Source of the DNA: a virus
Virus record (IMG/VR): IMGVR_UViG_3300035703_000361
Coordinates: 1-27,766 of that record
DNA length: 27,766 bases
Strand: one strand, 5' to 3'
Part shown: positions 7,861 through 22,848 of the stretch, piece after piece
Position numbering within the stretch: position 1 is the first letter of the stretch
How the letters are laid out: each line of letters begins with the position of its first letter
The notes under the pieces: generated by a model
What the model was told of the DNA's origin: nothing
The model's input: the letters and a program-made list of their open reading frames with translations, nothing else
Database searches by the model: none
Made by a program: the position numbers and the translations under genes

Positions 7861-8349
7861 ATGGCAGAAACATTGGATGTATCGCAATTACTAGCAAATA
7901 CCTACGAACCTAAAAGAAAGTATAGATGGATTCTAGAGATTGATGGAATTGACGCCTTCACTTGCGACAGCGCACAGCGCCCAACTTGGGAAGACACAGC
8001 AGTAGAAATTCATTATATCAACGACATCAGATACGTTGCGGGCAAGCGTCAGTGGGGCACATTCCAATTTACTCTTAAAGATCCGATCGCTCCTTCGGCC
8101 GCACAGAAAGTCGTCCAGTGGATGAGACTCGTTCATGACGACCCCACCGCACGTCAGGGCTATGCAGAAATGTACAAGAAAGATTTCTCTCTTAAGATGC
8201 TCGACGGTCCCGGCAACGTCGTTGAGAAGTGGAACATTCTTGGAGCATTCCCTACGTCAGTTGACTTCTCGGACTTGAACTACTCAGATTCAGAAGTTTC
8301 AACAATTCAAGTAACCGTTCGTCCTGATAAGTGTATTCTCGAATTCTAA
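7861..8349 (+). CDS. 19: Tail tube protein (gp19-like)
   Basis: 162 residues, nearly identical in length to T4 gp19 (163). Features of the tube fold are YRWILEIDGIDAFTCDSAQRP near the N-terminus, a 'VAGKRQWGTFQFTLKDPI' strand pair, a short helix (VVQWMRLVHDD) and the C-terminal beta hairpin 'GAFPTSVDFSDLNYSDSEVS' followed by IQVTVRPDKC. Subunits stack as hexamers to form the channel through which DNA leaves the head. It has a good Shine-Dalgarno and follows the sheath gene, as in T4. The next gene starts 17 nt later with its own GGAG. Confidence 0.9.
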   Translation: MAETLDVSQLLANTYEPKRKYRWILEIDGIDAFTCDSAQRPTWEDTAVEIHYINDIRYVAGKRQWGTFQFTLKDPIAPSAAQKVVQWMRLVHDDPTARQGYAEMYKKDFSLKMLDGPGNVVEKWNILGAFPTSVDFSDLNYSDSEVSTIQVTVRPDKCILEF

Positions 8350-8365: not shown

Positions 8366-9949
8366 ATGGCTAATAGAAAAATGGTAATGGAACTTGCTCC
8401 TCTCTTAGGTCCTAAGAAAGAAGAAGAAATGAAAGATAAACTTATGGATGAAGACGAGAAAGAAATGTCGCTATCAAGCATGTTCGAAAAAGGCGTGAAA
8501 GAAGCAGAAGATACATATCCATCACAAGAGCCAAAATTTCCAAAGGTTGTAAAAGAAAACGAAGATAAAGAAATGAAAGTTAAAGAGCTAACAAGCATGG
8601 TGAAAAAAGTAATGCTCATGGATATAGATACCGGAAGAGTCAATCCACAACAAGCGTTGGAAATGTTTACTGACATTACCAAAGCGGCACTTGGTAAATC
8701 CAACGTTGAGCCAACCGATGCAGTAATGAGCTATGTCCGACGACAGCTTGAGGGCGCTCTCGAAGAGAGATCTAAGCAGAAAAAAGGATCCAATAATCTA
8801 AAAGAAAAATACCCAGAGAAGAAAGATTATCCATCTTCACAGGGCAAGTATCCAGCAAACGCCTCAGAGGCAAAGACTGGCGCGAAAGCAAAACTAAAAG
8901 AAAAGTACCCAGAAAAGAAAGACTATCCTTCATCTGGCGGAAAGTATCCTGCAAAAGTATCAGAATCTAAAAATCTAAAAGAAGCAGTTCCTCCCAGCAA
9001 GAGAGAGATCGCAATTAAACAACAGGAAGCAGATATGCAGAAATTGCTAGCTCAGGAAGAGCAGCTACAGAAGCAGCTTCAGCAGGTTCAAGTTCAGAAA
9101 GACGCTCTAAATAAGCGTCTCGTTCTTGGCCCAGCCCCACAGCAAACATCTATTTCACAGGTCAATCAAGAACTTGGCCAAGCAAAGTTTGGAATGCTAA
9201 ATAGAGAATCAAAGAACGAGTCCTTGACAATTACAAAGACTCAGTTTAAAGAAGCTATTAGAAAAGGCGTTCAAATTAATGAACGTAAAAAGTTTATTTA
9301 CGAAACTGTTAAAGCTCAGATAGCGGATCAGGTTGAGACACGAAATCTTATTGAATCGTATCTTACCGAAGGTCCTCTGTCGACAGCGTTCGCAGGACTC
9401 AAGGGTGCCGCACAGGGTGCCGTCTCTGGCGCAAAGAGTGCCTTTGGCCAGACCAAGCAAGCCTTCAGTCAGGCTGCCGCTGCTCAGCAGGCCAAGGACG
9501 CTCAGTCCCAGGCACTAAAACAGGCGCAGAAATCAGTTGCGGACGCAATGAAAAACGTATCTTCAACAAGAAACAAGTTCTCACAGGAAATTCTAAAGAA
9601 CGCAGGTCTTGTAAATCAGTATCACGACGCAGTTGTGGCACTTAAGCAGGCAGCAGACCAGGCAAAGCAGTCGCTATCTCAGCCAGAAGCTCAGAGAATC
9701 GACTCTGAGGCTACGGTTGCACTAGGTCAGCTATATCAGGATCTCAACAGCGAAAAGAGCGGCATTGATGTCTTCCTAAAAGATCTGGAAAAGAAGATCG
9801 GAAAAGACAAACTTCTAATGACCAGAACAAAAGCAGTTCTTGATAAAGCTCAAAAGAATCCCGATGCTGGCGTATATGGCGTAGGCAAAGGTCCGAATAG
9901 AGCAGGCCTTCGGTCTCCTCGAGGCGGCGGCGGCTCAGGACTTCTCTAA
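8366..9949 (+). CDS. Unknown Lys/Gln/Ala-rich, probably virion-associated protein with internal repeat
   Basis: 527 residues, not recognised. The N-terminal 130 residues are highly charged (many Lys, Glu, Met). Residues 145-164 and 177-196 are a duplicated Lys/Tyr/Pro segment (motif LKEKYPEKKDYPSS). Residues about 215-250 are a Gln/Leu coiled coil, residues about 350-480 a low-complexity Ala/Gln/Lys helical region, and the end is Gly-rich. TKTQFKEAIRKG followed by ...SYLTEGPLSTAFAGLKGAAQ (Glu at 335) resembles the start of the next gene's product, and the L-T-E/G step looks like a T4 gp21 protease site (L/I-x-E). GGAG lies a few nt before the ATG. Its place between tube and baseplate genes suggests a virion, scaffold or injected protein, but no function is claimed. 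Confidence 0.7.
   Translation: MANRKMVMELAPLLGPKKEEEMKDKLMDEDEKEMSLSSMFEKGVKEAEDTYPSQEPKFPKVVKENEDKEMKVKELTSMVKKVMLMDIDTGRVNPQQALEMFTDITKAALGKSNVEPTDAVMSYVRRQLEGALEERSKQKKGSNNLKEKYPEKKDYPSSQGKYPANASEAKTGAKAKLKEKYPEKKDYPSSGGKYPAKVSESKNLKEAVPPSKREIAIKQQEADMQKLLAQEEQLQKQLQQVQVQKDALNKRLVLGPAPQQTSISQVNQELGQAKFGMLNRESKNESLTITKTQFKEAIRKGVQINERKKFIYETVKAQIADQVETRNLIESYLTEGPLSTAFAGLKGAAQGAVSGAKSAFGQTKQAFSQAAAAQQAKDAQSQALKQAQKSVADAMKNVSSTRNKFSQEILKNAGLVNQYHDAVVALKQAADQAKQSLSQPEAQRIDSEATVALGQLYQDLNSEKSGIDVFLKDLEKKIGKDKLLMTRTKAVLDKAQKNPDAGVYGVGKGPNRAGLRSPRGGGGSGLL
8798..8953 (+). repeat. Two direct repeats of 60 nt, period 96 nt
   Basis: 8798-8857 and 8894-8953 encode near-identical 20-residue segments with the core KEKYPEKKDYPSS. 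The differences are largely at third codon positions (AAA/AAG, GAG/GAA, GAT/GAC), so protein sequence is conserved over DNA. This indicates an old duplication kept by selection. Confidence 0.85.
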
Positions 9950-9959
9950 GAGGTTCGAC

Positions 9960-11051
9960 ATGAGCAATAAGCCATCAAGACAGATAATTGAGCAAGCCAT
10001 CAGAGATGCTATTGAAGGAAAAGTGATCTCTGAAGGTCCGGCGGACTTCATAAAAGGCGTAGCTGGTGGAATTAAAGGTGCTGCCCAAGTTACTATGGGC
10101 AATTATCGCGTTAACAACGTTAGATCAAAAGTTCAAGGCTTCGCAGATAAAACAAATAAGCAAATTGAAAAACTATCCCAGAACGTTGCTGGAAGCGCAG
10201 AGAAGATGGTTCAGTCATCGAATCCTGCTGTGTCGTCCACAGGCAAGCAAGTTCAGGCAATTATGAAAAACGCAAGAGAAGAAATACAATCTTCTTTGTC
10301 GGAATTGCCAGAAAAGTTTCCTGCTGCCGTTTCGGGAGTTGTCGCACCGAAGCAAGCGCAGGCACAATCGCCGCAGGCTCAGACCAAGGCAAGCGCAACT
10401 CCAAACGAAAAGCAGCATCAAGAATTTAATGCGGAATACGACAGACTATCCAAGAATCCACAATTCATGGAATTTGTAAAGAAAAATTACAATGTGGACA
10501 ATCTAGATTCGTTTCCAAGAACCAAGAAGGCATTAGATAAATTATTCTCGAATTACCAGCTATGGGTCGAGAAAGAACAAAAGACTGCGGCGAGAAACAA
10601 GGAAGTAGAAGATTTGGCGAAGCAGTATGCCAAAAATCAACCCTCAGCCCAAGAGGCTCCGAAGGAGTCTTTAATTCCAGAGAAGCTAACTCATAAAATT
10701 AATTTCCCAAGCAGCATTAAGTCCTTGGTTGGCGAGTCAATTTCCAAAGTGTTCCATAACGAAATGGGAGGCCCTGCAATTCCTCCTCCGCCTCCGGACG
10801 ATGAGGACACGGTCGGCAAGTACCTAAAGGCTCCTGGGGGCGCCAGGACGCCCCAAAAGGCATCCATGAAGGCTCCCTTGGTTCCCAAGAGCGAAAAACA
10901 AACAGTCCAACCACCGGCAAGAAAGAAACAGTTGGCGACTCCTCAAAAAGAATCCTTTTCTTCCATGAAAGAAATAATGGAGTCCAGTCTTCTAAAAGAC
11001 CAAATTCTATCCTCCATTCAAGATAGAAAAAAACTTTCCGGTAAGAAATAA
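9960..11051 (+). CDS. Unknown helical protein, likely partner or paralogue of the preceding gene
   Basis: 363 residues, not recognised. The N-terminus IIEQAIRDAIEGKVISEGPADFIKG... then GGIKGAAQ parallels residues about 300-350 of the preceding product (FKEAIRKG ... LTEGP ... GLKGAAQ). The I-S-E/G step at residues 23-26 resembles a prohead protease cut site. The middle is an Ala/Gln/Lys helical region. Near residues 275-283 there is a run of six prolines followed by acidic residues, and the C-terminal part is Lys/Pro-rich, ending with the motif KESFSSMKEIMESSLL. AAGAGG precedes the ATG. Gene spacing (10 nt) indicates co-expression with the upstream gene. A virion internal or scaffold protein is possible; no function is assigned. 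Confidence 0.7.
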   Translation: MSNKPSRQIIEQAIRDAIEGKVISEGPADFIKGVAGGIKGAAQVTMGNYRVNNVRSKVQGFADKTNKQIEKLSQNVAGSAEKMVQSSNPAVSSTGKQVQAIMKNAREEIQSSLSELPEKFPAAVSGVVAPKQAQAQSPQAQTKASATPNEKQHQEFNAEYDRLSKNPQFMEFVKKNYNVDNLDSFPRTKKALDKLFSNYQLWVEKEQKTAARNKEVEDLAKQYAKNQPSAQEAPKESLIPEKLTHKINFPSSIKSLVGESISKVFHNEMGGPAIPPPPPDDEDTVGKYLKAPGGARTPQKASMKAPLVPKSEKQTVQPPARKKQLATPQKESFSSMKEIMESSLLKDQILSSIQDRKKLSGKK

Positions 11052-11134: not shown

Positions 11135-11977
11135 ATGCAAGAAAAAGATATCGACGTTATGCAAACGGCGACTCCAAAAGTCAACGTAATGCAAGGCGCA
11201 AGTGCGCCGGAGATCCCCTATGAGCTTGTTCCGCTTCCGTCTCAAGGAAAGCTTTATCCGGAAGAACATCCATTGTTCGGTGAAGAGTCCGTTCAGATTA
11301 AAGCAATGACGGCAACGGAAGAAAACATTTTGAGTTCTCCTGCTCTTATTAAAAAAGGAACGGTTGTTGATACTCTTATTCGTTCTTGCCTCTTAAACAA
11401 AAGCATTGATCCAAAAACTCTTCTCGCTGGTGACAAGTCTGCTATTCTTTTGGCAATAAGAATTTCCGGCTTCGGTGCGGAATATACAATGAAGACTTCA
11501 TGCCCTGAATGTTCTCATGGATTTGATCATAATTTTGATTTGTCAAAGGTATTGGTTAAGCCTCTGAATTGCGATCCGCTGATAGCAAATAGTAATATAT
11601 TTTCATTTGTTCTTCCTAAAAGTAAAAAAACAATAAAGTTTAAGCTACTAACATCCGGTGACGAGATGGATATATCTGAGACTCAAGACAAGAGAAGAAA
11701 GGCACTAAGGAAGTCCGGAGTAACGTCAGAAGTAGAAACGACAGTTACAGACAATCTTCTTAGAGGCATATTAGAAATTGACGGGAACAAAGATAGGAAA
11801 TTTATAGAAAAGTTCGTTGCGACAATGCCAGTTCTCGACTCCAGAACGATAAGAGAGCACATCAAGGCAATACAGCCAGATATTTTGTTCAAAGAGGAGG
11901 TAGAATGCCCAAATTGTGGTGCCGTTGAAACACACGACATCCCGATCGGCATGGAGTTTCTTTGGCCGAAATTGTGA
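11135..11977 (+). CDS. Baseplate hub/tail-assembly protein, T4 gp26/gp51 family (zero frame)
   Basis: 280 residues in the zero frame. The N-terminus has the family start YELVPLPSQGKLYPEEHPL, followed by IKAMTATEENIL, a helical domain, and two Cys pairs: CPEC (123-126) and CPNC (258-261), each followed by His or Asp positions. This fits a zinc ribbon and the T4_baseplate family (Pfam PF12322), whose T4 members gp26 and gp51 help assemble the baseplate hub. AAAAGAGGT lies at good spacing before the ATG. The gene sits just before the tape measure, the usual place of tail assembly chaperones. The frame ends at TGA 11975-11977, but a +1 shift near 11960 would carry translation to 12215, giving about 359 residues. 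Confidence 0.8.
   Translation: MQEKDIDVMQTATPKVNVMQGASAPEIPYELVPLPSQGKLYPEEHPLFGEESVQIKAMTATEENILSSPALIKKGTVVDTLIRSCLLNKSIDPKTLLAGDKSAILLAIRISGFGAEYTMKTSCPECSHGFDHNFDLSKVLVKPLNCDPLIANSNIFSFVLPKSKKTIKFKLLTSGDEMDISETQDKRRKALRKSGVTSEVETTVTDNLLRGILEIDGNKDRKFIEKFVATMPVLDSRTIREHIKAIQPDILFKEEVECPNCGAVETHDIPIGMEFLWPKL
11953..11966 (+). promoter_or_regulatory. Candidate +1 programmed ribosomal frameshift site
   Basis: The zero frame reads ATG GAG TTT CTT TGG CCG AAA TTG TGA. GGAG (11953-11956) lies exactly 3 nt before CTT TGG C. This copies the prfB arrangement of a Shine-Dalgarno-like sequence, 3 nt, then CUU UGA C, where tRNA-Leu slips from CUU to UUU. The A-site codon here is UGG rather than a stop. 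TTT C just before it is a second +1-prone step (UUU to UUC, same tRNA). The +1 frame is open from 11904 to 12215. The shift itself is inferred. Confidence 0.6.
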
Positions 11978-12215
11978 ATTTATAGGCGTTAATACTGAAT
12001 ATTTAACCAAGATTTCATATTTAGAAACGTTCTATCTAGTGAATCACGGATTCTCAGCAGAATATCTAGATTCTATATCTTTAGAGAAAAGACGATTCTT
12101 CTTTAATTTATTAGCAGAAAAGAACAAAAAAGAACAAGAATCTGCATCCGGCAAATCGGAAGCCTCTGTTCCTTTGTCAAAAATGACTAAAGAAAAAATA
12201 AAATCAAATAGTTAA
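11964..12215 (+). CDS. +1-frame C-terminal extension of the gp26-like protein (tail assembly chaperone type)
   Basis: About 83 residues in the +1 frame. The content looks like real protein: YLTKISYLETFYLVNHGFSA then YLDSISLEKRRFFFNLLAEKN, a helical segment with conserved-looking aromatics, followed by a Lys/Ser/Glu-rich tail. The only Met is near the end (12183). Non-ATG starts upstream (GTG 11916) lie 15 nt beyond the nearest purine-rich GAGGAGG, too far for normal initiation. Independent translation is therefore unlikely, and frameshift fusion with the upstream gene is the simplest reading. The stop (TAA 12213-12215) is 17 nt before the tape measure start, as in lambda G/GT and P2 E/E'. The extension may bind the tape measure protein. 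A real indel or sequencing error is the main alternative. Confidence 0.65.
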   Translation, partial: GRNCEFIGVNTEYLTKISYLETFYLVNHGFSAEYLDSISLEKRRFFFNLLAEKNKKEQESASGKSEASVPLSKMTKEKIKSNS

Positions 12216-12232
12216 TAATTGAGCAATATTAA

Positions 12233-14386
12233 GTGGCGAAAAGGGAATCTTTAGACGACAAGGAAATTTTAAGCTTGGCGTCGGCATTCGAAAGGATGTC
12301 GGCAGCCAGCGGCATGTCCGAAGAGTCTATTGAGGGAGTGTTTCGTTCTGGCAAGAAGCTTAATAAACAATTGGCGGATTCTGCCAAAAAAGAATATGCT
12401 CAAATAATAAAGCAAACAAAAAATTACAATAAAGAAATACAAGATTTAACAAAAAGAATGAAGCAAGGCGAAACGCAACTTGCTAGTCAATTAGAGCATA
12501 CGACAAAACTAAGAAACGAAGGCCTTGAGCAAATAGATGTGTTTAATAAGGCCGGAGTATCAATGAGAGGCGCCACAGGAGCGGCCGGAGATTTGTCCAA
12601 GGCTTTCCCCGGCGTTGCATCTAGCATGGCAGTCGTGGCGAATGGGGCAATGGTTTTGTCTAAGTTAGTAGACTTTTTAGTCTCTGCATTCAACAGATGG
12701 CAAGAAACCAACAAAGAGTGGAAAAAGGCCATGGGCGAAATTCAGAAAAGAACCGGCGCCACAACAGAGCAGTTTCATAAGATGAGGAAGGCTATCGAAG
12801 AAGACAGAACTGCTATGTCATACCTCAAGGGAGACGTAAGAGGAATCGTAGACTCCGCCGAATTCATAGGGCAGCTAGCTGTCGACTTTAGAAACTTTAA
12901 CAAAGTAATGAGCAGAGACTTCAGAAAGACCATGCTGGCTCTCCAGGAAGGACTCGGATTATCTGGCGAAGCCGCAGTTGATTTTAGGCGTTCATTAGAA
13001 TCGCTCGGTTTAGCAAAGACAGAAGATGAGATTCGCAAGTTTACAGATCAATTTATGAAGTCTGCCGAAGCTGCCGGACTTCTTCCTGGCATCATGGCTC
13101 AAGATTTCAATGAAGCCAAAGATTACGTAGCAGCGTTCGGAAAAGAAGGCGTAAAGACGTTTAATAATATTTCGCTAATAGCCAACAGAGCAGGATTTTC
13201 AGCAAAGAAGTTAATAGATTCAATGTCTAAATTTAATTCATTTAATGCAGCATCCGACGCTACAAATAATTTGAACGCCGCTCTTGGTACAACAATCTCT
13301 TCTTTTGAACTTCTCACAACAAGAAAGGCAGAAGATAGATTTGAAATTATAAGAAAAGCTTTACTTGATCAAGGATTAACGTGGGACGTAATAACTGCAA
13401 AGGGTGACGACTATGCAAATCTAGTCGCCGAATCTCTAGGAGTCACAACCTCAGATGCCGCAAGACTTCTTGGTGCAAACGCTATATCAATGGAAAAACT
13501 AAGAAAAGAACAAGAAGCAAATCTAAAGAAGGCAGAAGAAGAAGCCAAGAAGAAACAAAAAGCACAAGAAGATTTTATGACATCGGTCACTAGGGCCTCT
13601 ACTGTTCTCGAGACAATTGATAGAAAGCTTGATAGAATCATGCAAAAGTTCTCTGAGGCTTTTGGTCCCATATTTGAATTGGTTAACAACATGATGTTAA
13701 AACCTTTAAATGCTGTTTTGTCATTTATGCCAACTTATGCGAAAGGGGTAACTGAAATGATGCAAATGGTAGGAAATGGAATGACAAAAATGAAACAAAT
13801 AGCTGACAGCGCGGCTCTTCATATTTATCAATATATTTCTAATAAACTAAATGCAATTAGCGATTTGTCGTTGGTGATCTTTTCTAAAATAAAAGAAAAT
13901 TTAAAAAATGCATTTGATATAGTAGACGACGTTTCTGCTATCTTTGCCAAAGTTAAAAATTCGATAGTTTCTTCTATCTCCTCTATTCCTGTGTTAAAAG
14001 ATTTAATCTCACCAGCAGAAAAAATATTTGATACTATTTTATCTTCAGTAAAAACAATAGTATCGCATGTATTGCAATTTACCAATCCAATAATGTCCAT
14101 GCTTGCCAAAGTAGGATCTTTGATTCCATCTCTTAAGACATGGGCACAAGGAAGTATAACTCAAGAAGTAGATGCCGTAGCGTCTAGCGAAACCAGAACA
14201 ACTCCTCAGAGAGTGATCGGAGGAGCAAGTAGCAGCTCCCCAGCCGTCGCAAAGTCTCAATCAGAAATCTCATCTCAGGCACCGGGAGTAATGGATGTCG
14301 TGAGCAAAGTTATACAGATACCTATAAAATTAACCATGGATGGGAAAGATATTGCTTCTGCATTTGTAGAATATTCAACAAAATAA
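12233..14386 (+). CDS. Tail tape measure protein
   Basis: 717 residues beginning at GTG; no ATG is nearby, and the upstream signal is weak (TTGAG). Residues 1-110 are charged coiled coil. Residues about 115-145 (SKAFPGVASSMAVVANGAMVLSKLVDFLVSAF) are hydrophobic, then long helical segments run to a Lys/Glu/Ala coiled coil at about 422-445. Residues about 470-600 are Met- and Ile-rich hydrophobic helices. This mix of coiled coils and buried hydrophobic helices, with the position after a frameshift-type chaperone gene and before tube-initiator and LysM genes, marks a tape measure. It sets tail length and leaves the tail ahead of DNA. At about 1.5 angstrom per residue the length predicts a tail near 100 nm, comparable to T4 (gp29 is 590). 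No peptidase or lysozyme motif was seen. Confidence 0.85.
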   Translation: MAKRESLDDKEILSLASAFERMSAASGMSEESIEGVFRSGKKLNKQLADSAKKEYAQIIKQTKNYNKEIQDLTKRMKQGETQLASQLEHTTKLRNEGLEQIDVFNKAGVSMRGATGAAGDLSKAFPGVASSMAVVANGAMVLSKLVDFLVSAFNRWQETNKEWKKAMGEIQKRTGATTEQFHKMRKAIEEDRTAMSYLKGDVRGIVDSAEFIGQLAVDFRNFNKVMSRDFRKTMLALQEGLGLSGEAAVDFRRSLESLGLAKTEDEIRKFTDQFMKSAEAAGLLPGIMAQDFNEAKDYVAAFGKEGVKTFNNISLIANRAGFSAKKLIDSMSKFNSFNAASDATNNLNAALGTTISSFELLTTRKAEDRFEIIRKALLDQGLTWDVITAKGDDYANLVAESLGVTTSDAARLLGANAISMEKLRKEQEANLKKAEEEAKKKQKAQEDFMTSVTRASTVLETIDRKLDRIMQKFSEAFGPIFELVNNMMLKPLNAVLSFMPTYAKGVTEMMQMVGNGMTKMKQIADSAALHIYQYISNKLNAISDLSLVIFSKIKENLKNAFDIVDDVSAIFAKVKNSIVSSISSIPVLKDLISPAEKIFDTILSSVKTIVSHVLQFTNPIMSMLAKVGSLIPSLKTWAQGSITQEVDAVASSETRTTPQRVIGGASSSSPAVAKSQSEISSQAPGVMDVVSKVIQIPIKLTMDGKDIASAFVEYSTK

Positions 14387-16377: not shown

Positions 16378-19170
16378 ATGTCGTCTGTTATAATTGGCAA
16401 AAAAGAAAAGACGTTGCCTGTTTCGTTGAATTTAAAAAACTTCAATGAAACAGGAGAAGAGTTTACGAGCTACACCCGCCCAGGAATAAAAGTAAAAAAG
16501 ATAATACTTCACTGGACTGGCGGCGAACGAGGAATAGACGGAGTAGAGGAAACACTAAGAAAAAGAAAGCTTGGTGCTCACTTTATAGTAGACGTTGACG
16601 GAACAGTGCAACAATACGTTGATACAGACCGCATGACTTGGCACGCTGGTGGTGCCAATCGAGATTCTATAGGATTTGAAATTGTCAACAAAGGATTTTC
16701 ATCCAGTCCTACAAGACAAGGAAGAGAAGAATATAGCACAAAGTTATTAGGTAAAAATGTAAAATTTACCACCTTTACAAAAGAGCAGATAGATGCGACA
16801 AAGAAGATAGTAAAATTTTTATGCTCTCAATACAATATTCCGTATTCCGTTCCTACGAATGACAAAGGAGAACTTCTAACAGACAGAAGATTTACTGAAT
16901 CGGAGTTGGCGAACTACTCGGGAGTCTGCGGTCATTACCATGTGGATCTAAAAAAGGAAGTCAAAGTAGATCCAGGAATAGACCTTCTGCAAGCGATACT
17001 CAACGACTCTAAAGGCTTGTCGCCAAATGAAAATGAAGTTCCTTCTGAGACTGAGTCGGAACCCGCTTTTCGTCCCGACACCAGAGGAGCTGTTGAAAAA
17101 TATGAAGCCATGACGCAAGGAAGAACCGAGCCGCCAGATGGTGAGTTGGGATATTCTATTGTATCTAAGGATAGAGAAGTAGAAACTTTTTCACTAGACA
17201 AGAATGCAAGCGGAATAATATCTGTAGCGGACACCAACAATATAATACAAACGCCATACACCAGATTCTATAGACAACTAGAGCAAATGAAAAAGGTCAC
17301 AACGCTAGAGTTGGCCACCGTGGCGCCCGTAATTCAAGTTTTGGTTCAAGCAGAAAAAGAAGATGGAAACAAAAAGGAGAATAAAGATAAAAATTTAATC
17401 AACTTAAATGAATTAATATTTTCTACTCCATCATTCGGAGAAGACGTTTTGTCCTCGCGTTATGATTTCTCTTATCAAAATCCGGAGAGGCCGATAGCTT
17501 CAATAAAAAGCTTGACCATCAACACGCAGCCGCCGTCAATAGGCGGAACATTTGGAATATCTATAGCTAAGCTTGAAATCAAGATACACAACTTTGATTT
17601 AGTTAATCAAAATCATCCAAAAGGAAAATATATAGCTTTCTTGCTGAGACAAAATTACCACGTTAGACTAAGATACGGAGCAGAAAGTTCATATACAGAA
17701 GATCATCTAAAAGAAAGCTTCCAGTGGATAGAGCAAGATTTTTTTACTTCAAGACATGATATTACTGTCAGTGATGACTTTAGTATGAATGTTACAATAG
17801 AACTGGTATCTGCCGAACATAAACTGTTTAATCAAGTTTTGATTGGAGAAAGCATTCAGGCAGAAAGTCTGCCAGAGAGCGTACTGAACGATATAGATGA
17901 TCCGTCGACAAGAAAAGATCTTTCTCTTTCTATAAAAGTTTATAACAAAAAATTATCGCAAGTAGGCATAAACGATAACATAAAAGAAGATGGCACTATA
18001 TCTTCTGTGCTTCACGGAACAATAACGGACAAAGATTTCAAAACGCATCTCGACTCACTGCCGGAAGTTAGAAAAACAAATCTTATTGCTGGATTGAAAA
18101 CTATACAATCAAAATTGCTAAGTAAAAAATATGAACAATTAATTAGTGAACATTGCTATATGTTCAAAGGAAGAAGTTCCGCTGGCGATTTACAATACCA
18201 GTCTGCTAACATGGGAGCAATCTTTATGTCTCTCGTGGCACCAGAGGTAAAGAAAATAGTAAGTATATCAAACAAAGCAAAAATTAAAGGAGGAACAATA
18301 AATACTTCATTTTACGGAAACGTGTCAGACAACAGAAATGATGTTCGCATTATTTTTGGAAATTTTAATTCGTGCGCTGCCCAATGGGCGAACAGGCCCA
18401 TAAGTACGTTTCCTATAAATCTAGAAAGACTTTTTTCCTATCTAAGGGAAGAAAGAGACATAGGAAGATTTAGTAATTCCATCACAAGTTTCATGAATAA
18501 TCTAACAGTATTCATGCAGGATGAGTCGCACTTTGTTGCTGATGGATCTGAAAAAAAACTAGTTAAGCCTCAAATTAAATTTTCTCTGTATCCAAATCCG
18601 TATTACGAAAAAAATGGTCTTCCTGCCTGGATATTTTACGTTTACGACTCTATGTCTGTCGTTACAGATTTTTCTACTATTCTTGATACTATTTCCAAAA
18701 GTGGATTAACAAAAGAAGATGTAAAATCAGAACTTGTAAAATTTGGAGTTCCAAGCATAGACATAGGCACAAACTATTCTTTAATAAAAAATATAACAGC
18801 AAATACAAGATCGGATAGTGCCTTGTCCGACATTCAGCTAAGAGAGGCAAATAGCGCCTTTAATTCCAGGCAGGTCGATGCATCAGATGTTCCTACTGGT
18901 ATATCTAGAGAGTTTGTGTCAGGGTATCAATTAGACTTGACAAAGGGAATTGTAGCCCACAGCATCATATATCCTCTACAGGTGTCGATAGATCATTACT
19001 TTATGTCGTCGGCGCTTCTCTATGGACATTTGTATATGTTTTTCCCAACAAATCTGTTTAGCGGAATATATGTCATTGATCAGGTGACTCACGAAATTTC
19101 AGAAGGATCCATGTCTACTAGACTTTCTTTAAAAGTCCAAGCAACAACCGCCAACAAAGTTCCACAGTAG
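16378..19170 (+). CDS. Baseplate hub protein with N-terminal N-acetylmuramoyl-L-alanine amidase
   Basis: 930 residues. Residues about 38-210 are an Amidase_2 (T7 lysozyme-type) domain: HWTGG (H45), GAHFIVDVDGTVQQYVD, TWHAGG (H89), IGFEIVN (E101) and GHYHVDL...KVDPG (H186, K196, D198). H45, H186 and D198 are the likely zinc ligands; the reaction would cut the amide between muramic acid and L-Ala of the host wall. After an acidic linker (210-240), residues about 345-930 look like a gp27/gpD-type hub, with an N-terminal beta domain (IASIKSLTINTQPPSIGG) and the typical C-terminal GIYVIDQVTHEISEGSMSTR. No signal peptide. The enzyme would be carried at the tail tip for local wall digestion. T4 puts lysozyme on gp5 instead, so the fusion partner differs. 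Confidence 0.8.
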   Translation: MSSVIIGKKEKTLPVSLNLKNFNETGEEFTSYTRPGIKVKKIILHWTGGERGIDGVEETLRKRKLGAHFIVDVDGTVQQYVDTDRMTWHAGGANRDSIGFEIVNKGFSSSPTRQGREEYSTKLLGKNVKFTTFTKEQIDATKKIVKFLCSQYNIPYSVPTNDKGELLTDRRFTESELANYSGVCGHYHVDLKKEVKVDPGIDLLQAILNDSKGLSPNENEVPSETESEPAFRPDTRGAVEKYEAMTQGRTEPPDGELGYSIVSKDREVETFSLDKNASGIISVADTNNIIQTPYTRFYRQLEQMKKVTTLELATVAPVIQVLVQAEKEDGNKKENKDKNLINLNELIFSTPSFGEDVLSSRYDFSYQNPERPIASIKSLTINTQPPSIGGTFGISIAKLEIKIHNFDLVNQNHPKGKYIAFLLRQNYHVRLRYGAESSYTEDHLKESFQWIEQDFFTSRHDITVSDDFSMNVTIELVSAEHKLFNQVLIGESIQAESLPESVLNDIDDPSTRKDLSLSIKVYNKKLSQVGINDNIKEDGTISSVLHGTITDKDFKTHLDSLPEVRKTNLIAGLKTIQSKLLSKKYEQLISEHCYMFKGRSSAGDLQYQSANMGAIFMSLVAPEVKKIVSISNKAKIKGGTINTSFYGNVSDNRNDVRIIFGNFNSCAAQWANRPISTFPINLERLFSYLREERDIGRFSNSITSFMNNLTVFMQDESHFVADGSEKKLVKPQIKFSLYPNPYYEKNGLPAWIFYVYDSMSVVTDFSTILDTISKSGLTKEDVKSELVKFGVPSIDIGTNYSLIKNITANTRSDSALSDIQLREANSAFNSRQVDASDVPTGISREFVSGYQLDLTKGIVAHSIIYPLQVSIDHYFMSSALLYGHLYMFFPTNLFSGIYVIDQVTHEISEGSMSTRLSLKVQATTANKVPQ

Positions 19171-20329: not shown

Positions 20330-20725
20330 ATGAAGACTATTGACGAAAGACTAAGAGCCGCTGGTGACCCAAGTGTCCCTTCGGAAATCCTTTTTGCCCT
20401 AAGTAAAGACGAACACGCTACCGTGAGATGCAATGTTGCCCTAAATCCAAGTTGTCCCCTAAATATCCTCATTGATTTAAGTAAAGATAAAGATTCATAT
20501 GTCAGATGGGGCGTTGCAAAAAACCCAAATTCCCCTCTAGATATCATTCTTGCCTTAAGCAAAGATGAAGATCTCTATGTGAGATGTAATGTTGCCATAA
20601 ATACAAGTTGTCCTCCGGAAGCACTGATTCATTTGTCCGGGTATAATAGTAATTATATCAATAAGCTCCTAAGAAAAAGAAGCGATCTTCCGGACCTCTT
20701 AAAACTTAAACTTGCGGAGATATGA
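20330..20725 (+). CDS. Variant leucine-rich/HEAT-type repeat protein
   Basis: 131 residues built from three 26-residue repeats (residues 25-50, 51-76, 77-102) after a partial first unit. The consensus is SKDxxxxVRxxVAxNxxxPxxxLxxL, that of LRV (variant leucine-rich) or short HEAT-like repeats, which stack as paired helices and bind proteins or nucleic acid. The C-terminus (YINKLLRKRSDLPDLLKLKLAE) caps the stack. ATG follows the upstream stop directly (TGA ATG), and the HD gene starts 3 nt later, so all three form one operon. The specific partner is unknown. Confidence 0.7.
   Translation: MKTIDERLRAAGDPSVPSEILFALSKDEHATVRCNVALNPSCPLNILIDLSKDKDSYVRWGVAKNPNSPLDIILALSKDEDLYVRCNVAINTSCPPEALIHLSGYNSNYINKLLRKRSDLPDLLKLKLAEI
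20402..20635 (+). repeat. Three coding tandem repeats of 78 nt
   Basis: Units 20402-20479, 20480-20557 and 20558-20635 each begin with AGT/AGC AAA GA(T/C) and encode the 26-residue LRV/HEAT-like unit. Nucleotide identity is clear but imperfect. There are no spacers, so this is a protein repeat and not a CRISPR array. Confidence 0.85.
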
Positions 20726-22149: not shown

Positions 22150-22164
22150 ACTTGTCGGTGCTTG

Positions 22165-22848
22165 ATGCGTAAATATAAAGTTTATTCTCTAACTTGTCCT
22201 AAGACGGGACAAATTCGATATGTTGGAATAACATATCGATCATTGAATGCTAGACTCGAAGAGCACACGAGGCCATCTAAACATCCAAATTCCAAAAAGG
22301 CACAATGGATAAAGTCCCTGGCAGAAAAAGGACTGAAGCCGAAAATTAATTTATTAAAAGACAATTGCCACCTTGGCGAAGCATTGAAGCTGGAGGAGTC
22401 CTTAATAAAGAAACATAAAAATATCGTTTTAAACAATCAAACGAGAGGCTCTTTAAATAGCTTTGTTACCCCGTCTAACAGGAGAAGTGTTATCAAGTAT
22501 AGCATTTCCGGTGAAGTGATCGCAACGTATGACTCGGTGTCTCAGGCAATACATGAGCACGGAATAGACAAAAGAGCAATTTATAGATGTTTGTCTGGAA
22601 AGAGAAAAACCTTTGGCGGATTTATTTGGAAGTATTCCGAAAAAAGAAAGTTGTCACACAAGACAATATGCACCGGAACAAAAAAGCTCGTCTGCCAGTA
22701 CGACGAAGATAAATGCATAGCAATTTATAAGAGTGCAAAAGAAGCAAGCAATCAAACGAAGATAAACGAACAAGAAATAATAAAGTGTTGCAGAAATAAA
22801 AAGAAGACCGCTGGTAAATATACGTGGCAATACGTTGACACTCTGTAA
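22165..22848 (+). CDS. Freestanding GIY-YIG homing endonuclease with NUMOD-type repeats
   Basis: 227 residues from ATG 22165; a TTG three nt upstream is less likely. The GIY-YIG core is KVYSL (5-9) and RYVGIT (18-23), with catalytic R30 and H34 in RLEEH and a Glu in LEESLIKKH. Two C-terminal modules of about 45 residues, near 107-152 and 178-224, share 'xYdxxgxxIxxYxSxxxAxxxxxIxxxxIxxCxxxKxKTxGxxxWxY', the pattern of NUMOD1/IENR1 DNA-binding repeats. The protein resembles T4 Seg endonucleases, which cut allelic sites in competing phage DNA. No intron is evident around it. In T4, segG lies next to gene 32; here one gene separates the two. Confidence 0.85.
   Translation: MRKYKVYSLTCPKTGQIRYVGITYRSLNARLEEHTRPSKHPNSKKAQWIKSLAEKGLKPKINLLKDNCHLGEALKLEESLIKKHKNIVLNNQTRGSLNSFVTPSNRRSVIKYSISGEVIATYDSVSQAIHEHGIDKRAIYRCLSGKRKTFGGFIWKYSEKRKLSHKTICTGTKKLVCQYDEDKCIAIYKSAKEASNQTKINEQEIIKCCRNKKKTAGKYTWQYVDTL

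Follow-up and report, generated by a model that had tools for sequence, protein, structure and literature searches.

Frameshifting in the chaperone genes of long-tailed phages is mostly -1 (-2 in Mu), with T4 a stated exception (PMC5009743). In T4, the chaperones listed for assembly of the hub include gp26 and gp51, the second of which is essential and missing from the particle, its function being unknown (PMC3004832). Where T4-like genomes have been compared, without mention of frameshifting, the cyanophage and marine vibriophage versions of gp51 were noted to lack the first ~200 residues (PMC3037559). The PRFect paper notes that some T4-like phages make their tail assembly chaperones from two genes, crediting Vladimirov et al. 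2022 (PMC10885494), and the Adele paper refers to -1 signals of the poly-T type in the chaperone genes of T4-like phages (PMC12846349). From a different setting, Firth et al. predicted a +1 class with the sequence UUU_C and restricted A- and E-site codons (PMC3498833). Here we describe a gp26-like gene in a 27,766-base record of an uncultured phage (IMGVR_UViG_3300035703_000361; the whole stretch is referred to as the window), and conclude with considerable confidence that programmed +1 ribosomal frameshifting yields two forms of a tail assembly chaperone from it.

The gp26-like open reading frame (ORF) ends at a TGA (11975-11977) just past Phe-Leu-Trp-Pro, its C-terminal end reading HDIPIGMEFLWPKL before the stop. 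The product is a member of the T4 gp26/gp51 family, with matches to PF12322 (E=2e-14, 54.3 bits with a cut-off of 24.5, residues 34-269) and to PHROG 150 ('baseplate hub'; E=2.7e-17). The +1 frame has no proper start and is open from 11904 to 12215, across the gp26-like stop and towards the tape measure gene; it reads SFFGRNCEFIGVNTEYLTKISYLETFYLVNHGFSAEYLDSISLEKRRFFFNLLAEKNKKEQE and has its first ATG only close to its end. The -1 frame is closed, and the window, unlike 12 other gp26 clusters described below, does not combine an X_XXY_YYZ heptamer with an extension in the -1 frame. A sequence-only reading of this DNA had given the same coordinates for both frames and had pointed to the string GGAG-TTT-CTT-TGG-C, whose GGAG-TTT-CTT-TGG lies at 11953-11965; it proposed that a probable +1 programmed frameshift adds to the gp26-like protein an extension that has no start codon of its own and precedes the tape measure, and the homologues support this. 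GGAGTTTCTTTGG occurs once in the window when up to one mismatch is allowed (0.07 expected). The relevant features are as follows.

11135-11977, plus strand: gp26-like putative short form of the tail assembly chaperone, 280 residues, frame 0, with PF12322 and PHROG 150 matches and homologues with the same end in many phages.
11953-11956, plus strand: GGAG, Shine-Dalgarno (SD)-like, 3 nt before CTT, a possible local enhancer from its anti-SD energy, not conserved.
11957-11965, plus strand: slip site TTT CTT TGG, where the frame changes in 84 clusters; L098, immuto, L110 and L279 also have TTTCTTT.
11960-11962, plus strand: CTT, proposed P-site codon (alternative TTT, 11957-11959), with TGG (11963-11965) as the A-site codon.
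11964-12215, plus strand: +1-frame extension, 83 codons and a stop, with homologous shifted-frame extensions in all clusters and purifying selection in relatives.
12233-14386, plus strand: tape measure protein, 717 residues, starting 17 nt past the stop of the extension, PHROG 1535.

Residues 1-276 joined to the +1 extension give a 359-residue long form; the fusion was translated with TTTC as a four-base word (CTTT would also shift at codon 40). The tape measure assignment comes from a match to PHROG 1535 (tail length tape measure protein; E=1.3e-7), with a relative in the contig of L098 (E=2.2e-52), and the gp26-like gene thus lies directly upstream of the tape measure gene, as in chaperones of the G/GT kind.

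The case is a comparative one. Homologues identified by tblastn are in uncultured jumbo phages, Flavobacterium phage immuto, Microcystis phage Mel-JY01, Streptococcus phage GXN1 and Streptomyces phage BRock, with further gp26 relatives in Bacillus SP-15, Listeria LIS04, Rhodothermus RM378, Synechococcus Bellamy and Vibrio KVP40. In each of these phages gp26 stops soon after Phe-Phe or Phe-Leu (Leu-Phe in BRock) and the extension goes on in another frame. About 260 loci were added by scanning IMG/VR with Mel-JY01/immuto, the SP-15 group, Bellamy, L098 and the tail tube of the window as queries. With P0001 as the query there were no close IMG/VR relatives, and a six-sequence alignment had no stretch conserved enough for scanning. 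The gp26 sequences were clustered at 70% identity (n=84) and frames were called with a profile of the extension; longest-ORF calls had misplaced four loci (L030, L046, L089 and L091), for three weak rows below the profile threshold (L008, L015 and L259) the open frame alone decided, and six loci that have ELFNP instead of Phe-Phe were kept out of the counts. The extension is in a shifted frame from the same codons in 84 of 84 clusters (+1 in 72 and -1 in 12), which is far beyond chance, and the pattern E..F.L.Y.G(G)F...E.Y..P...R is common to the clade of the window.

The DNA at the slip site is conserved beyond the needs of the protein, and because the slip position was located at the protein level this conservation is not circular. 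The +1 sites (first codon, second codon and next base) are TTT TTT T in 43 clusters, TTT TTT C in 14, TTC TTT C in six and TTT CTT T in five (the window, its relative L098 and phages of two further lineages), with four singletons. The -1 sites are T TTT TTC in 10 of the 12 clusters, T TTC TTC inside an A AAT TTC heptamer in one (L090) and T TTT TTT in one, and T TTT TTC is present in 80 of 80 cyanophage-type loci. Phe-Phe is coded by TTTTTT in 45 of 46 +1 clusters, compared with 71% TTT among Phe codons elsewhere (P about 6e-13, although the clusters are related by descent and P values overstate their independence). The Pro codon after the site is CCT in 42 of 46 (background 32%), as +1-frame coding (GGC CTN) would produce. 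The base preceding the site is T in only one of 72 +1 clusters (background 36%) but in all 12 -1 clusters, and the second codon ends in C in none of the 72 and in 11 of the 12. A second frame that is open across the stop, with both the frame relation and the slip site conserved in the 84 clusters, is again what is seen in G/GT-kind chaperones. Four of the ELFNP loci (L262, L265, L267 and L271, near position 2205) were inspected; all four have the extension in +1 and retain CCC AGT, whereas two of them encode Phe with TTC, and slippage may now take place at the Pro codon, as it does in Listeria phage PSA.

The extension itself behaves as coding sequence in the shifted frame. Differences between related loci at codon positions 1, 2 and 3 number 384, 251 and 837 in the +1 group and 570, 306 and 1097 in the -1 group, and their concentration on third positions of that frame shows the extension to be under purifying selection in relatives. 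This leaves the question of whether it is reached by frameshifting or from its own start, and an independent small protein, possibly coupled to the upstream gene, could begin at GTG 11916, GTG 11919 or TTG 11925. These are candidate codons in the open +1 frame, the small ORF of relatives has an entry of its own in many databases, and in KVP40 an ATG overlaps the gp26 stop. However, they are the only +1-frame starts in the window before the conserved part and no SD-like sequence was found at any of the three. A start codon with an SD in homologues, which the sequence-only reading had named as grounds for abandoning a frameshift, is generally absent: ATG with an SD-like sequence is present in two of 72 +1 clusters and any start with one in seven, and 21 have no ATG, GTG or TTG at all. 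An independent start also does not explain the conserved slip nucleotides, nor why conservation of the protein frame begins at the slip site. We regard it as improbable for the window, and it is rejected as a general cause given the scarcity of start codons with SD-like sequences and the conservation of the slip nucleotides.

Slippage of RNA polymerase on a T run, rather than of the ribosome, is suggested by the seven consecutive T residues in most +1 relatives (TTTTTTTGG, TTTTTTTAC), since T runs can slip in transcription. The TTTCTTT of the window has no T run longer than three, however, and the same is true of immuto, L098, L110, L279, GXN1, BRock and LR756508; the codon-phase rules (T before the site and a C-ending second codon for -1) fit re-pairing of tRNAs. 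On these two grounds transcriptional slippage is rejected as the general cause and seems very improbable here. There is next to no likelihood that a sequencing or assembly error, or decay of the gene, has split one ORF, even though a one-base change would join the frames: the same split occurs at the same codons in all clusters, including finished genomes of cultured phages, and the extension is under purifying selection. In particular, the closest relative, L098, is a separately assembled contig with an identical TTTCTTTGG and the same frame relation, so a single-base sequencing error, the other outcome that would have undone the sequence-only reading, is refuted.

A strict prfB-type shift, dependent on the GGAG element 3 nt before CTT, is attractive for its exact spacing and for pairing with the anti-SD of about -5.9 kcal/mol in the window, compared with a family mean near -1.5 at that offset. 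But the four remaining phages with TTTCTTT have no GGAG so placed, the gp26 family as a whole lacks it too, and the A-site codon is TGG rather than a stop. We therefore consider such a dependence unlikely, although less so than the alternatives above, and since the prfB-like GGAG is not conserved it is at most a local enhancer. The sequence-only reading had asked whether the frame change and the GGAG-3nt-CTT geometry are conserved together; the frame change and the slip site are, and the geometry is not.

Within window 11893-11928 there is also AGAGGAGG with, 4 nt later, the ATG of an 8-codon third-frame ORF (11905-11928) whose TGA overlaps TTG 11925. This ORF is probably fortuitous, because L098 encodes Asn-Cys there and an ATG is impossible.

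Programmed +1 frameshifting on the ribosome is thus the reading we prefer, from the frame relation, the conservation, the homology of the extensions, the synonymous constraint and the scarcity of start sites. From this comparative evidence we infer that the shift occurs on the ribosome, as well as which codon slips, the efficiency and the chaperone roles. Several observations weigh against it: the shift product has not been seen, the window phage has no cultured host, GTG and TTG codons are present upstream in its +1 frame, a structural match of the gp26 model to a known tail assembly chaperone (see below) is not significant, and no conserved stimulator, either SD or structure, turned up near the slip site. 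With regard to the last of these, no conserved SD-like stimulator was found near the site among the gp26 clusters, and there is no strong conserved structure up- or downstream of it (mean z about -0.6 on both sides), so the efficiency of the +1 shift may be low. The +1 group shows an anti-SD-like signal ~28-34 nt upstream, which was considered too distant and put down to Glu-rich coding.

The following events are envisaged. Most ribosomes would read the gp26-like frame to the stop at 11977 and make the 280-residue short form, with a minority losing one base at TTT CTT TGG (11957-11965). With the rare TGG waiting in the A site, the peptidyl-tRNA on CUU would, in the manner of prfB, re-pair with the UUU that overlaps it. 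A less likely course, also named in the sequence-only reading, is a slip of tRNA-Phe from UUU to UUC. UGG is used at 5.9 per thousand in the large genes of the window, and the sole UGG of gp26 is that of the slip site. Shifted ribosomes would then read the +1 frame to 12215 and make the 359-residue long form with its helical extension, and the junction peptide would be EEVECPNCGAVETHDIPIGMEFLGR if CUU slips and end in MEFFGR if UUU slips. In SP-15-type sites the first codon may be TTC but the second keeps TTT followed by C or T, a tolerance suggesting that the second codon slips in the P site while the third (TGG, CGN or TAC) occupies the A site. For LR756508 (TTT CTA T), a UUU to UUC slip at the first codon is the likelier choice.

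The direction of the shift appears to have switched repeatedly. Four changes of direction are needed on the gp26 tree, three of them forced by well-supported branches, and the flanking bases change with direction in every independent pair, although three or four pairs are too few for significance alone; TTT CTT T also needs three changes on this tree. We think it probable that the Phe-Phe/Phe-Leu slot, usually before Trp-Pro, in the tail chaperone of a large group of T4-related phages is a two-way frameshift element whose direction is set by its flanks (+1 where the preceding base is not T and the following one is T or C; -1 where T precedes and the second codon ends in C) and has changed about four times without loss of the fusion. 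The +1 version would need neither an SD nor a structured stimulator, and would represent a natural bacterial counterpart of the UUU_C class predicted from influenza PA-X.

The best reading of the locus, by analogy, is a tail assembly chaperone with short and long forms as the counterpart of G/GT. On the model of lambda gpG/gpGT, coating of the tape measure protein would fall to the short form and recruitment of tail tube subunits to the long form. Going by lambda gpT, the extension probably has the following protein as its partner.

7861-8349, plus strand: gp19-like tail tube protein, with PF06841 (2.6e-9) and PHROG 4542 (8.5e-32) matches.

The gp26-like protein and the extension were modelled apart, as two halves. 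The gp26 model has a predicted local distance difference test (pLDDT) score of 90 and its most probable PDB match is the HK97 tail assembly chaperone 2ob9 (probability 0.21, TMt 0.46; not significant, E=3.8); the extension model is a three-helix unit, and a fold search with it gave no matches. T4 gp26 itself (L017) ends in EFFELL and has no extension. T4 gp51 weakly resembles gp26, with a weak match to the extension at its C-terminal end, as if a gp26-type domain and the extension had been joined in frame. Judging from these sequences, T4 seems to make its chaperone pair from two genes, gp26 and gp51, and may have replaced frameshifting by gene duplication.

The window includes contractile-tail genes: those for the sheath, the gp19-like tube, the gp26-like protein, the tape measure and an amidase-bearing tail protein. 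Between the tail tube and chaperone genes there are two long Lys/Gln-rich ORFs (527 and 363 residues; 8366-11051) with no confident PHROG matches, whereas in most of the cultured relatives fetched gp26 directly follows the tube gene. The amidase-bearing protein (16378-19170; 930 residues) has an N-terminal amidase (PF01510, E=2.6e-21) and is likely to degrade cell walls. A 131-residue protein of leucine-rich-variant/HEAT-like repeats (20330-20725; PF01816, E=2.1e-12) is unusual for a phage genome, and a GIY-YIG/NUMOD-type homing endonuclease-like ORF (22162-22848) lies amid phage genes.

Chaperone frameshifting, the identity of gp26/gp51 as chaperones and -1 shifting in T4-like phages are already known, the last two from Vladimirov et al. 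2022 as represented by the papers citing it. In the literature available in readable form, which includes that paper through citations only, we came across no description of +1 frameshifting in this gp26 clade, nor of the slip motif it uses or a single slot that switches direction. The sequences indicate that +1 is the rule in a large clade of T4-related phages. They provide a natural set of sites that differ in direction, slip codon and flanks while the protein scaffold stays the same, and on which the cause of direction can be tested directly. The 'short gp51' of cyanophages and vibriophages (PMC3037559) would also find an explanation here, and misannotation of this locus is predicted in many phage genomes, with the extension either missing or listed as a separate hypothetical gene.

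In comparison with described systems, the window locus resembles lambda gpG/gpGT, P2 E/E' and Mu in having a chaperone gene just before the tape measure and short and shift-extended forms (PMC5009743), but lambda and P2 shift -1 and Mu -2, whereas the window shifts +1, and no sequence match to lambda gpG was found. T4 gp26 (PF12322) is homologous to the short form; T4 seemingly uses two genes, its T4-like relatives shift -1, and the -1 signature T TTT TTC is present in KVP40, Bellamy, RaK2, Atu_ph07, Paride and XbC2. The suggestion in the sequence-only reading that a +1 shift with an SD-stimulated prfB-like site would be unusual on a PF12322 protein calls for revision, as frameshifting is widespread in the family, -1 in T4-like and several jumbo phages and +1 in the clade of the window. 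The haloarchaeal myovirus HSTV-2 also has a contractile tail and a chaperone gene with a predicted +1 shift (PMC5009743), but its host is archaeal. Listeria phages PSA, A118 and A500 and phage SPP1 have +1 shifts in structural genes, but at CCC codons in capsid and tail-tube genes rather than in a chaperone; the conserved AAT CCC AGT of the ELFNP sub-group may be compared with the CCC sites of the Listeria phages. E. coli prfB (RF2) shares CUU U slippage and, in the window, an SD-like element 3 nt upstream, but differs in having UGA rather than UGG in the A site, and in the window the SD is not conserved and the shift yields a C-terminal extension rather than autoregulation. The +1 site of influenza A PA-X (UCC_UUU_CGU) has UUU followed by C, where the sites described here have C or U, and is likewise without stimulators, but the ribosomes here are bacterial and the second codon of the window is CUU U and not UUU_C. 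It is the SP-15-type phages (TTY TTT CGN) that closely match the UUU_C class of Firth et al. (PMC3498833).

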